The notes beneath the pieces were generated by a model. That model did not search any database, was not told where the DNA came from, and was given only the letters and a program-made list of their open reading frames with translations. A DNA stretch of 64,000 bases from Streptomyces spectabilis (GTDB lineage Bacteria > Actinomycetota > Actinomycetes > Streptomycetales > Streptomycetaceae), in NCBI RefSeq assembly GCF_008704795.1, contig NZ_CP023690.1, positions 620,001-684,000 on the forward strand, given 5' to 3'. Every line of letters begins with the position of its first letter. Within the stretch, counting starts at the first letter, position 1. This document shows, piece after piece, positions 24,435 to 27,813 of the stretch. The position numbers and the translations under genes were made by a program.

Positions 24435-25661
24435 CTAGGCGTCCTCCTCGTCCCACAAACCGGTGCCGCGCGCCCGTACGACAGCGCCGACGCGGGCGAG
24501 TACGTCGCCGTGCGACCGGGGGCCGAACCGCCGTCCGTCGCGCAGGCGCAGCGAGACGTGGTCGGCGGCGGCTTCCTTGGGGCCGATGACCGCTTGGTAC
24601 GGAACGAGCCGGGCCTGCCGGACGCGGGCGCCTAGGCTGCCGTGCTCCGGGCCGAACACCTCGGCGCGCAGGCCCTGTTCGGCGCAGCGTCCGGCGAAGG
24701 CGCGGGCATGGGGCAGCTCGGCGTCGGTGAGGGGCAGGACCGCAAGCTGGGTGGGGGCGAGCCAGGCGGGGAAGGCGCCGCCGTGCCGCTCGATGAGGTG
24801 GGCGACGGCCCGCTCCACGCTGCCGATGATGCTGCGGTGGACCATGACCGGGCGGTGCTTGGCGCCGTCCGGGCCGATGTAGTGCAGGTCGAACTGCTCG
24901 GGCTGGTGGAAGTCGACCTGCACGGTGGACAGGGTGGACTCGCGTCCGGCGCTGTCGGTGACCTGGACGTCGATCTTGGGGCCGTAGAACGCGGCCTCCC
25001 CCTCGGCCGCCTCGTAGGAAAGGCCCGAGCGGTCGAGCACGTCGGTCAGCAGGGCGGTGGCGCGCTCCCACTTCTCGGGCGCGGCCACGTACTTGCCGCC
25101 GGGGCCGGGGAGGGAGAGGCGGTGGCGGGCCGGGGTGATCCCGAGCGCCTCGTACGCACGGCGGATCAGGTCCAGGGCCGCGGACGCCTCCTCCGCGACC
25201 TGCTCCAGGGTGCAGAAGATGTGCGCGTCGTTGAGCTGGATGGCGCGCACCCGGGTCAGTCCGCCGAGCACGCCGGAGAGCTCCGAGCGGTACATGCCGC
25301 CGAGTTCGGCCATCCGCAGCGGCAGTTCGCGGTAGCTGTGGGAGCGGGACCGGTAGATCACCGCGTGGTGCGGGCACAGGCTCGGCCGCAGCACGACCTG
25401 CTCGCCGCCGAGGTCCATCGGCGGGAACATGTCGTCGCTGTAGTGCGCCCAGTGCCCGGAGATCTCGTACAGCTCGCGCTTGCCGAGCACGGGTGAGTAG
25501 ACGTGCCGGTAGCCCGCCCGCCGCTCGGCGTCGCGGATGTACTCCTCCACGGTGTGCCGCAGCACCGCGCCGTCGGGTAGCCAGTACGGAAGTCCCGCGC
25601 CGATGAGCGGGTCGGTGTCGAACAGGCCGAGCTCGCGGCCGAGTCTGCGGTGGTCGGGCAT
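24435..25661 (-). CDS. thrS: stand-alone threonyl-tRNA synthetase (catalytic and anticodon domains only)
   Basis: This 408-residue class II synthetase charges tRNA-Thr. It keeps the zinc/active-site Cys (RPSLCPHH), HSYRELPLRMAELG, motif 2 (MYRSELSGVLGGLTRVR, then NDAHIF), motif 3 (GSVERAVAHLIE) and an anticodon-binding domain (AVLPLTDAEL onward). It lacks the ~240-residue N-terminal TGS and editing domains of housekeeping ThrRS. Such extra copies can confer resistance to ThrRS inhibitors or supply a pathway with Thr-tRNA (inference). ATG at 25661 has GAGGAG 7 nt upstream. A Thr-rich leader peptide and terminator-like hairpin precede it. Confidence 0.9.
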   Translation of the reverse strand: MPDHRRLGRELGLFDTDPLIGAGLPYWLPDGAVLRHTVEEYIRDAERRAGYRHVYSPVLGKRELYEISGHWAHYSDDMFPPMDLGGEQVVLRPSLCPHHAVIYRSRSHSYRELPLRMAELGGMYRSELSGVLGGLTRVRAIQLNDAHIFCTLEQVAEEASAALDLIRRAYEALGITPARHRLSLPGPGGKYVAAPEKWERATALLTDVLDRSGLSYEAAEGEAAFYGPKIDVQVTDSAGRESTLSTVQVDFHQPEQFDLHYIGPDGAKHRPVMVHRSIIGSVERAVAHLIERHGGAFPAWLAPTQLAVLPLTDAELPHARAFAGRCAEQGLRAEVFGPEHGSLGARVRQARLVPYQAVIGPKEAAADHVSLRLRDGRRFGPRSHGDVLARVGAVVRARGTGLWDEEDA

Positions 25662-25701
25662 GGCGGTCTCCTCGCGGACGGGAGGGCGGGTGACCACAGG
25701 A

Positions 25702-25733
25702 CGAAGCCCCGGGGCACTCACCCCGGGGCTTCG
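25702..25733 (-). terminator. attenuator hairpin upstream of thrS
   Basis: A 13-bp perfect stem (CGAAGCCCCGGGG / CCCCGGGGCTTCG) with a 6-nt loop begins 14 nt after the leader-peptide stop and ends about 40 nt before the thrS start. It has the position and strength of a leader attenuator. Confidence 0.7.
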
Positions 25734-25747
25734 GATCAAGACGTCTG

Positions 25748-25801
25748 TCAGCGCGCCGGGACACTCTCCGGCGTCGTCGTCATGTCAGCGGCGCGCTTCA
25801 T
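25748..25801 (-). CDS. threonine leader peptide of the thrS attenuator
   Basis: A 17-residue reading frame, MKRAADMTTTPESVPAR, ends with TGA at 25748. It contains three consecutive ACG Thr codons (25780-25772). These directly abut a small hairpin, CGCCGG-N8-CCGGCG (25754-25773), ahead of the 13-bp hairpin. The arrangement predicts ribosome stalling when charged tRNA-Thr is scarce, altering folding so that thrS is transcribed. No ribosome-binding site precedes the ATG, but a -10-like TAGCGT (25814-25809) would place the transcript start at the ATG, giving a leaderless mRNA. Established for amino-acid biosynthetic operons in actinobacteria; inferred here. Confidence 0.6.
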   Translation of the reverse strand: MKRAADMTTTPESVPAR

Positions 25802-25808
25802 GTGCAGG

Positions 25809-25814
25809 ACGCTA
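25809..25814 (-). promoter_or_regulatory. possible -10 element for a leaderless thrS leader transcript
   Basis: TAGCGT on the minus strand lies 7 nt before the leader-peptide ATG. The -35 region is poor. Confidence 0.35.
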
Positions 25815-25956
25815 GCAAGCCGTGATGACACCCGCACCGCCTTTTCCCGCCCGGGGCCACACCCCGGGCCGCACTAGGTGGCAGCCCGCTTCAGCGAAAG
25901 GCTCGATGTGGCGCGCGGCTGGGCCGTCGCGTCGGGGAGCCGTCGGGCCGGGGCGC

Positions 25957-27051
25957 TCAGCGCGGCGCGATGCGTACGCGCTCGCTGTCCTGGTCCGAGA
26001 GGAACGCCGAAAGGGCGCTGCCCTCCTCGGTGACGGCGGTGCGCTCGGCGCGCGAGAAGGGGCGCAGCGGGGTCACCGTCACGGTGTCGTCCGCCACGGT
26101 CCACGTCGCCGCGACCCGGCCGTCGACCAGGACGACGCGTTCACCGGCGACCGACAGGCCGCGATGGGCGTCGTCGATGATCCGGCCCCGGTCCTGGTAG
26201 CCGAGGATCGCGTTGTCGAACGCGGGCAGGAACCGCACCGGCGCGGGCGTGTCGGGGTCCGGGCGCGGCGCGTCGGGCAGGTCGAGCAGTTCGCGGCCCC
26301 GCTCGTCGCGGAAGGCGACGAGTTCCCCGCGGACGGCGGCGACCGCGGCCGGGAGCCCCGCGACACCGCTCCAGGCGCGCAGGTCGGCCGTGGCGGCCGG
26401 GCCGAAAGCCGCCAGATAGCGGCGTACCAGCGTCTGGCCGACCGGATCGGAGCCCGCAGGGGACAGCGGCGCGATCTCGCGCCCGAGCCACGTGGCGAGC
26501 GGGAGGTTGCGTACGCCGCCCTTGGTACGCCACAGGCCGCGCGGCGGCACCTGGGCCATCGGTACGAGGGCTGCGATCAGCATCTCCCCCAGCGCGCGCG
26601 GCGGCGTGTCCGGCCAGCGGTCGGCGACCGCGCGCGTCAGCTCGGCCATGGTGCGGGGCTCGCCGTCAGCCAGCGTTTCCCGGCCCGCCGCGGCGAGTTC
26701 GCCGAGGTCGACCCCGTTCAACTCGGCGCGGTAGACGCCGAGGACCTTCTGGCGCAGCATCGCGTCGTGCCGGGACCGCCAGGCCAGGGCGTCGTCGGCC
26801 GTGACGAGGTGGACCGTACGGCGCATGAGGTGCGTGCGCACCACGCGCCGCTCGACGAGCAGGTCCGAGAGCTCTCCCGGCGCGAAGGCGCGAATCCGTG
26901 ACCAGAGTCCGACGAAGGGCTCCTGCGGCTCCTGCGCCTGGAGGCCGCCGAGGTGCGCGACGGCGCCGAGGGTCGAGAGGTCCGCTCGGTCGAGGAGCAG
27001 CTGCCGGGCGAGCGTCGCGCGGCCGAGGGTGCGGGTGTCGAGCACGGTCAC
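25957..27051 (-). CDS. AlkZ-like (HTH_42) DNA glycosylase
   Basis: This 364-residue winged-helix protein is of the family containing AlkZ and YcaQ. The N-terminus has VAHLGGLQAQEP, giving a Gln-Ala-Gln (Q-phi-Q, residues 38-40) catalytic motif as in AlkZ, rather than the Q-phi-D of YcaQ. MRRTVHLVTADDALAW and the C-terminal VLVDGRVAATWTV block are family landmarks. AlkZ excises bulky azinomycin adducts and unhooks interstrand crosslinks; the lesion here is unknown. GTG at 27051 has GGAGG 8 nt upstream. Possibly a self-protection gene. Confidence 0.85.
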   Translation of the reverse strand: MTVLDTRTLGRATLARQLLLDRADLSTLGAVAHLGGLQAQEPQEPFVGLWSRIRAFAPGELSDLLVERRVVRTHLMRRTVHLVTADDALAWRSRHDAMLRQKVLGVYRAELNGVDLGELAAAGRETLADGEPRTMAELTRAVADRWPDTPPRALGEMLIAALVPMAQVPPRGLWRTKGGVRNLPLATWLGREIAPLSPAGSDPVGQTLVRRYLAAFGPAATADLRAWSGVAGLPAAVAAVRGELVAFRDERGRELLDLPDAPRPDPDTPAPVRFLPAFDNAILGYQDRGRIIDDAHRGLSVAGERVVLVDGRVAATWTVADDTVTVTPLRPFSRAERTAVTEEGSALSAFLSDQDSERVRIAPR

Positions 27052-27813
27052 CGGGTCGCCTCCGGGCGCTCGGCGAGCGGCTGCGGGAGTCGGCGGTTCC
27101 CTGGCGTCGAGGTGTCCGAGTGGTCCCGGCCGACGTGGTGTCCGGTACGGCCGCGCGTACGCGTCTTCACTGCTTGGTCCTCGATTCGGCATCGCGGGGC
27201 GGGCGTCGTCGCGGCGCTCACCCCACGCGTCTGTTCGGTCGATGGTCACAGTGCCAGGAGTTGCGGTCAGGCCGTGTCCGCTACGCGCGCCTCCGTCGCC
27301 ACACGGCCGTAGTAACCGCCGTTCTCGTCCCGGCCGGGAGTGAGGCATCGGAATGAGGCCGTGCGTGAGGCACCCGTCGAGGCGGACTTGGCGGAGTCAC
27401 GGCGCAGGCTCCGCTGACGGCCCGGTGGCGGTGGGGCGAGCGTTGCCTGCTGGGTCTGCCGCTGGACGGGAGGTGCGAGTCGGTCCGGCGACGACCGGGC
27501 GGCAGCATGCGAGTTCCACGGCCACGCACGCACCGGGACGCTGCGGGATCCGCCGCCGACACGGCGGCGGACTGCTCGGTGGCCAGGGCGTTTCATGCGG
27601 CGGCCGAAGGCGGCCGGGCCGCCGGAGCCGGTCCGGCGGCATGTCGGCGGTGCCCTTACAGAATCTCTCGCGGCGTCAAGGACGCCCGTGCGCTTCCCGT
27701 CGTGCTCAGCCTGGCGGCTTCGCACTCTGCTACGGATCCGCGACGCCTGACAACGTGGATGCTCACCGGCGGTAACCCGACCGCCGCCCAGAGTCAGGGA
27801 AAGGAAGGCGACG
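27052..27813. other. 762-bp region without a supported gene
   Basis: Long stop-poor frames cross it on both strands but have low-complexity Arg/Pro/Gly compositions and poor starts. A protein-like tail (GRDENGGYYGRVATEAR) ends at 27267 on the minus strand and may be a remnant. No RNA gene or repeat was recognised. Confidence 0.35.

Follow-up and report, generated by a model that had tools for sequence, protein, structure and literature searches.

An auxiliary threonyl-tRNA synthetase gene and its neighbourhood

The window, a stretch of 64,000 nucleotides of Streptomyces spectabilis (contig NZ_CP023690.1, positions 620,001 to 684,000), carries a gene for a second threonyl-tRNA synthetase (ThrRS), preceded by a short leader reading frame, two hairpins (P1 and P2) and a conserved tail (Table 1). 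The encoded protein matches TIGR00418 with 426 bits (cut-off 383.65), and is short and without an editing domain. Exactly one other ThrRS, a full-length enzyme, is encoded in the S. spectabilis genome (9.8 Mb, one contig), and the two are 41% identical across the shared part. Full-length thrS is present in 60 of 61 genus genomes (59 of 59 among those of good quality), whereas the short form is patchy, being found in 175 of 392 genus genomes (E up to 1e-110), and in 62 of 394 class genomes and 17 of 137 genera (E up to 1e-105). Because the full-length gene is near-universal in the genus and the short one is not, the short ThrRS is an extra gene, as the first-pass annotation of this DNA had assumed. 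No run of Thr codons was seen on reading about 120 nt upstream of the main thrS of S. spectabilis.

The genes on either side of the ThrRS locus are a cytochrome P450 gene and a gene for an AlkZ-like protein, and close homologs of these two were found at 1 of 80 named loci (flanks up to 3 kb). As the neighbouring genes differ between loci, the leader and the ThrRS gene together constitute the conserved unit. The P450 has a close homolog (93%) only at L033 among the 80 named loci, and its pairing with ThrRS is local. In viral contigs, two stretches fit the search pattern, and no ThrRS relative was confirmed there.

Table 1. Positions of genes and RNA features at the ThrRS locus, numbered from the first base of the window
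Feature	Position	Strand	Remark
Cytochrome P450 gene	22988-24352	-	directly downstream of the ThrRS gene, same strand
Second threonyl-tRNA synthetase gene	24435..25661	-	408 aa; catalytic and anticodon-binding domains only
ThrRS start codon	25661	-	read from sequence
Shine-Dalgarno GAGGAG of the ThrRS gene	25668..25673	-	read from sequence
Conserved tail GGTCACCCGCC, pairing with the P2 loop (candidate pseudoknot)	25685..25695	-	covariation across relatives
P2, 13-bp perfect hairpin, loop TGAGTG (25715-25720)	25702..25733	-	candidate terminator without U-tract
CCGGGG in the P2 5' arm, partner of the antiterminator strand	25721..25726	-	sequence and folding
Leader stop codon	25748-25750	-	14 nt before P2
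Leader ORF MKRAADMTTTPESVPAR-stop, 17 codons	25748..25801	-	family M(K/Q)RA..TTTP..PAR
P1 hairpin CGCCGG-N8-CCGGCG; 3' half is region 2 of the putative switch	25754..25773	-	sequence almost invariant
UCCCGG, candidate antiterminator strand, partner 25721-25726	25756..25761	-	sequence and folding
Control codons ACG ACG ACG (Thr)	25772..25780	-	ACGACGACG in 192/198 distinct leaders
-10 box TAGCGT, 7 nt before the leader ATG	25809..25814	-	leaderless start expected
AlkZ-like DNA glycosylase domain protein	25957-27348	-	upstream of the ThrRS locus

The leader reading frame and its near-invariant core

The minus-strand frame with three consecutive ACG codons, the small hairpin that abuts them, and the stop codon placed before a perfect hairpin, all proposed in the first-pass annotation, are present in the window. 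The annotation had further held that the leader, its Thr codons and the hairpin should recur in relatives, and all of them are conserved. Upstream regions were compared in two sets, of 110 and 109 loci, with species overlap between the sets. The leader peptides of the relatives follow the form M(K/Q)RA…TTTP…PAR, and the core ACGACGCCGG-N5-GTCCCGGCGCGCTGA is nearly invariant. It is shared by 108 of 110 upstream regions of the first set; the exceptions are L085, a Dactylosporangium MAG with only 102 nt upstream, in which part of the core is nonetheless visible, and L103, which has no leader. A short ORF with three adjacent Thr is found in 105 of 109 regions of the second set, the others being L163 (110 nt upstream only), L185 (no leader), and L201 and L221, where just two Thr are adjacent. 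The ORF that the script listed for L169 is not the true leader, which was read separately. An NCBIfam scan of three leader peptides gave no match.

Among the upstream regions of the first set, named holders of the leader include Streptomyces, Kitasatospora, Streptacidiphilus, Embleya, Streptosporangium, Microbispora, Microtetraspora, Sphaerisporangium, Amycolatopsis, Saccharopolyspora, Goodfellowiella, Actinocrispum and Nocardia. A search of the 394 class genomes for the core, with one mismatch allowed, gave a single site in each of 52 genomes (50 of the sites exact) and none for the reversed control. These 52 genomes span 14 genera and five family labels. All except one belong to the 62 genomes with a short ThrRS (51/52); in the exception, G345, the core lies at contig bases 164-193 and points off the contig end. 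Eleven ThrRS-bearing class genomes are without the strict core, and those that were read have small core changes or too little upstream sequence. At L170-L172, where ThrRS identity is only 54-61%, TTTPG is kept and the full core is absent, and in G629 the core is still present though ThrRS identity is down to 65%.

The core is almost unchanged at synonymous positions, which argues that the RNA, and not the peptide alone, is under constraint. The second and third Thr codons are nearly always ACG, with ACT or ACC at the first codon only (5/198); this preference possibly reflects a requirement for the tRNA that reads ACG. The P1 pairing does not need all bases of Thr codons 2 and 3.

L103 and L185 keep P2 and the tail without leader ORF or core, and would represent a lineage in which the sensor was lost or new upstream sequence was gained.

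A promoter box adjoining the leader start codon

The TAGCGT box, put forward earlier as the -10 element of a leaderless transcript, has counterparts across the relatives. All 198 distinct leaders have a TANNNT hexamer 6-8 nt ahead of an in-frame start (5-9 nt allowed), 165 of them at 7 nt; of 2139 other start codons taken from these sequences as background, 6 have one. The leader start codon is ATG in 190 and GTG in 8. With a -10 box right before the leader start, a leaderless transcript is expected, and the spacing in the relatives fits the leaderless start published for thrL of S. lividans from RNA-seq (PMC8079986).

Alternative pairings of region 2

The predicted complementarity between the antiterminator strand UCCCGG and CCGGGG of the P2 5' arm is borne out, with one G-U pair. 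The spacing from stop codon to hairpin, which the annotation had singled out, is likewise kept, at 13-17 nt in 159 of 186 leaders. Folds were predicted with ViennaRNA for 186 distinct leaders from 219 regions (18 identical ones dropped, 15 skipped). Eight were skipped as having no core recognizable by regular expression (L085, L096, L103, L109, L163, L185, L197 and L221, of which L096, L109, L197 and L221 do have leaders), and seven as having no stem of 7 bp (L104, L111, L122, L158, L171, L172 and L184). The ribosome was represented by a mask reaching from 15 nt before the A-site codon to 12 nt after it, a choice of our own; the folded RNA ended after the P2 loop, and the antiterminator was scored where region 2 and the P2 5' arm shared at least five pairs.

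The antiterminator is predicted in 174/186 leaders when the first Thr codon occupies the A site, in 161/186 for the second, and in 119/186 for the third. The window sequence itself forms the antiterminator with the first Thr codon in the A site and not with the third. When the stop codon is in the A site, the antiterminator is formed in 0/186, which is true by construction since region 2 then lies under the mask. With no ribosome on the RNA, region 2 is found in P1-type pairing in 159/186 and in the antiterminator in 25/186. In five sequences folded with P2 complete (that of the window and four relatives, each with the ribosome at Thr1, at Thr3, at the stop codon, or absent), P2 is the best structure in every state, so that any antitermination must be kinetic.

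The P2 hairpin and the missing U-tract

The median energy of P2 is -32.7 kcal/mol. For this stem, the covariation called for by the annotation is seen: its pairs vary with compensation in 48 distinct hairpins as parsed, of which a few are misplaced. As in ribosome-mediated attenuators of the trp/his type, the codon run of the leader matches the downstream gene product, Thr for ThrRS. Their intrinsic terminator, made of a hairpin and a U-tract, is absent in the window, where no U-tract follows P2. Among 179 loci, the 9 nt past the 9-bp GC core contain no T run longer than 2 in 159, a longest run of 3 in 17, and one of ≥4 in 3. The last three, L111, L132 and L252, are the only loci with T runs of 4-6 after P2, and by sequence these look like ordinary intrinsic terminators at the place of P2. 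L252, which is the same place as L197, carries TTTTTT after its counterpart of P2, where most relatives have no terminator of this kind.

Without a U-tract in the window and in nearly all relatives, classical transcription termination is unproven, and the element is not filed as a classical attenuator. The S. lividans thrL is likewise described with a single hairpin without a U-rich stretch, and termination is called 'not clear' in that report (PMC8079986). Rfam covariance models, including the T-box riboswitch, gave no gathering-level match in the window; sub-threshold matches in 25550-25950, all below the gathering score, were judged to be chance.

Covariation between the P2 loop and a downstream tail

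Downstream of P2 lies a tail with the consensus GGTCACTCGCC, most commonly starting 8 nt past the 11-nt arm (96/189). The P2 loop CGAGTG has its complement in CACTCG of this tail, and changes in one are matched in the other: CAAGTG with CACTTG, CGGGTG with CACCCG, CGAGCG with CGCTCG, and also CGAATG with CATTCG (L111), CGAACG with CGTTCG (L167), and CGCACG with TGTGCG (L148). Covariation was counted by scripts of our own, because a MAFFT alignment of 56 sequences (of 59, with L044, L247 and L250 left out for a misplaced tail or hairpin) did not line up the tails.

The final count used a ThrRS tree of 157 sequences, with L044, L247, L249 and L250 left out. Loop-tail cells in register are standard pairs in 93.4%, versus 32-48% when the tail is slid by 1-3 positions, and double changes that keep the pair fall on 10 branches, versus 0-2 in the slid controls, which have 5-7 pairs compared with 8 in register. 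The number of independent compensatory events is about 6, as four of the ten belong to the CAAGTG loop type, probably with one origin, and the tail of L087 is doubtful. Collapsing weak tree nodes left the count the same, and may not have taken effect. An earlier count took 160 sequences, left after 6 duplicates were removed from the 166 with a 6-nt loop among 179 parsed, and gave 92.7% paired and 11 events versus 0-2, with one event due to the misparsed L247 and five, scattered by the tree, at one loop position.

Shuffling points the same way: over 110 distinct rows, loops and their own tails form on average 6.98 pairs, and shuffled ones 6.36 (sd 0.07). Of 69 unusual loops (L247, L249 and L250 left out), 39 can pair along their whole length with the stretch downstream of them, a number that averages 23 and peaks at 32 under shuffling. 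This comparison is not decisive by itself, since G-U pairs would let the common loop CGAGTG fit 44 of the 69. The pairing has exceptions, with A-C at one pair in 19 of 160 rows and C-A at another in 7 of 160, and the CGAGCG loop occurs six times with the mismatched CACTCG and five times with CGCTCG. In the window, the 6-bp helix UGAGUG/CACCCG contains one A-C mismatch and one U-G pair. Taken together, the sequences suggest that the P2 loop and the downstream tail form a conserved pseudoknot, imperfect in the window itself. To judge by the spacing, the distance from P2 is too great for the tail to act on termination there, and the pseudoknot most likely has its role in the read-through RNA.

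A probable threonine-responsive switch and its alternatives

The leader, the Thr run, the spacing, the hairpins, the leaderless promoter and the extra ThrRS are all conserved, and threonine-responsive control mediated by the ribosome is the best reading of them. The locus is probably an attenuator of the auxiliary ThrRS. Of the leader-peptide attenuator claimed in the first-pass annotation, the ribosome-mediated, threonine-responsive part is well supported, while P2, lacking a U-tract, is no more than a candidate terminator. Transcription would start at the leader ATG. When charged Thr-tRNA is ample, the ribosome would reach UGA and cover region 2 (GUCCCGGCGCGC), P2 would fold, and expression would stop, most likely via an early end of transcription. 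When charged Thr-tRNA is short, by lack of threonine or because the main ThrRS is poisoned or starved of zinc, the ribosome would wait at ACG-ACG-ACG and leave region 2 free to pair with the emerging P2 5' arm, so that P2 would be delayed and RNA polymerase would reach the ThrRS gene. The P2 loop would also pair with the tail, which usually starts about 10-20 nt downstream of P2, and the pseudoknot may tune the read-through RNA. Against such an attenuator stand the missing U-tract, the stability of P2 once complete, the failure of the window sequence to form the antiterminator with Thr3 in the A site, and L103 and L185 with P2 and tail but no leader.

The same sensor might have a translational output, the leader controlling translation of the ThrRS mRNA and not termination, which we regard as unlikely. 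P2 with the tail pseudoknot would lie about 10 nt upstream of the Shine-Dalgarno site, and in the absence of the pseudoknot the tail (CUCGC) could cover GCGAGG of the Shine-Dalgarno region. Such an output would account for the lack of a U-tract after P2 and for the conservation of a loop-tail helix that, by its spacing, is too far downstream for termination at P2; it also has a parallel in the LEU elements of leuA, where a leader-peptide pseudoknot involves the Shine-Dalgarno box (PMC1262725). The complementarity of each tail to its own Shine-Dalgarno region exceeds all 500 shuffles, but slightly (4.50 versus a mean of 4.32, sd 0.04), and the pairing is short, with ≤3 pairs in 26 of 110 rows, so that the support from tail pairing is marginal. 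The polarity is awkward as well, since it is under ample threonine that P2 with its pseudoknot would make the Shine-Dalgarno site accessible, and a few relatives have real U-tracts. A wider proposal, tentative and on balance doubtful, is a distinct class of switch, in which the hairpin is one half of a pseudoknot and not a U-tract terminator, the loop captures a tail upstream of the ribosome-binding site, and stalling at the Thr codons decides whether the pseudoknot forms; it would couple Thr-tRNA charging to both read-through and translation in several actinobacterial families.

ThrRS of E. coli binds a leader hairpin and represses its own gene, and here, too, the gene encodes ThrRS and P2 is strongly conserved; but autoregulation leaves the Thr codon run, the leaderless promoter and the conserved stop spacing unexplained, the P2 loop covaries with a downstream tail, and there is no Rfam match, which makes it highly improbable. 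The loop-tail complementarity could instead be a protein-bound inverted repeat in DNA, as GGCGAGTG and CACTCGCC form a dyad and an operator would also show compensatory change. We consider this very unlikely, for one half sits exactly in the loop of a perfect hairpin, and the distance between the halves varies, reaching tens of nt in L044 and L091. Finally, the leader might have no regulatory role and be conserved by descent beside a recently spread gene, in keeping with the origin of most sequences in one genus and the patchy spread of the gene. The near-invariance of the core at synonymous sites in spite of the divergence of ThrRS, as in G629, and the variation of flanking sequence and leader length render this scarcely credible.

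Possible uses of a spare synthetase

The three zinc ligands are kept in 179/179 ThrRS relatives. Ahead of the conserved core, the segment usually has four residues, but at least 10 in 22 of the 160 relatives with a start found (L057, L025, L255, L243, L245 and others); several of these longer segments are rich in His and Asp, for example MHDHAHDHAHDHDHDHDH, and could bind zinc, on a zinc enzyme. From the borrelidin-contact residues listed in PMC4389257, M411 (human numbering; site placed by our alignment) is Ser in 175/179 relatives and Met in the main ThrRS. In E. coli numbering, G463 is unchanged in 179/179 relatives, and L489 is Gln in 177/179 and also in the main ThrRS. Resistance of the auxiliary ThrRS to borrelidin or obafluorin is only suggested by these residues. 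In Anabaena, a second ThrRS is induced by low zinc (PMC4787780). The leader would sense the charging of Thr-tRNA, whatever lowers it.

If this reading is right, the element senses Thr-tRNA charging, is widespread and nearly invariant, and keeps back a spare synthetase that may help against natural inhibitors of ThrRS or when zinc is scarce. It would serve as a model for attenuation without U-tract terminators in high-GC bacteria, and its covarying loop-tail helix leaves the output directly open to compensatory mutation.

Comparison with known leader-controlled synthetase genes

In E. coli, pheST encodes a housekeeping synthetase and has an ordinary U-tract terminator; its attenuation resembles the present case in that a cognate leader peptide regulates a synthetase. 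According to Vecchione and Sello, trpS1 of S. coelicolor reportedly encodes an auxiliary, antibiotic-resistant synthetase with leader-peptide attenuation, and the 2010 study of Lopatovskaya et al. on attenuation of aminoacyl-tRNA operons may already mention thrS.

Leader-regulated synthetase genes are also treated in PMC1262725, which names pheST and describes Streptomyces trpS and leuS attenuators with cognate codons before a tRNA synthetase gene. The codons there are for Trp and Leu, whereas here they are for Thr, without a U-tract and with a conserved candidate loop-tail pseudoknot. The LEU element of actinobacterial leuA in the same source combines a leader peptide with a pseudoknot near the gene start, but pairs the codon run with the Shine-Dalgarno box, where here the P2 loop would pair with the tail; on reading the window sequence, no pairing of the codon run with the Shine-Dalgarno box was evident.

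The closest relative belongs to the same family. The first-pass annotation took a Thr leader on a stand-alone ThrRS to be no standard example, and in this it needs amending, as thrL before thrS has already been reported in S. lividans TK24 (PMC8079986, Table 4), with the leader MKRVRPFLETTPGFVPAR, a leaderless start and one hairpin without a U-rich stretch; exactly this peptide is encoded at L221 (genome G136). That description, in its accessible part, concerns one strain and two Thr, and does not include conservation, alternative pairing or loop-tail pairing. The kind of element is not new; what is new, as far as the open-access literature shows, is its breadth, the near-invariant RNA and the covarying loop-tail pseudoknot.
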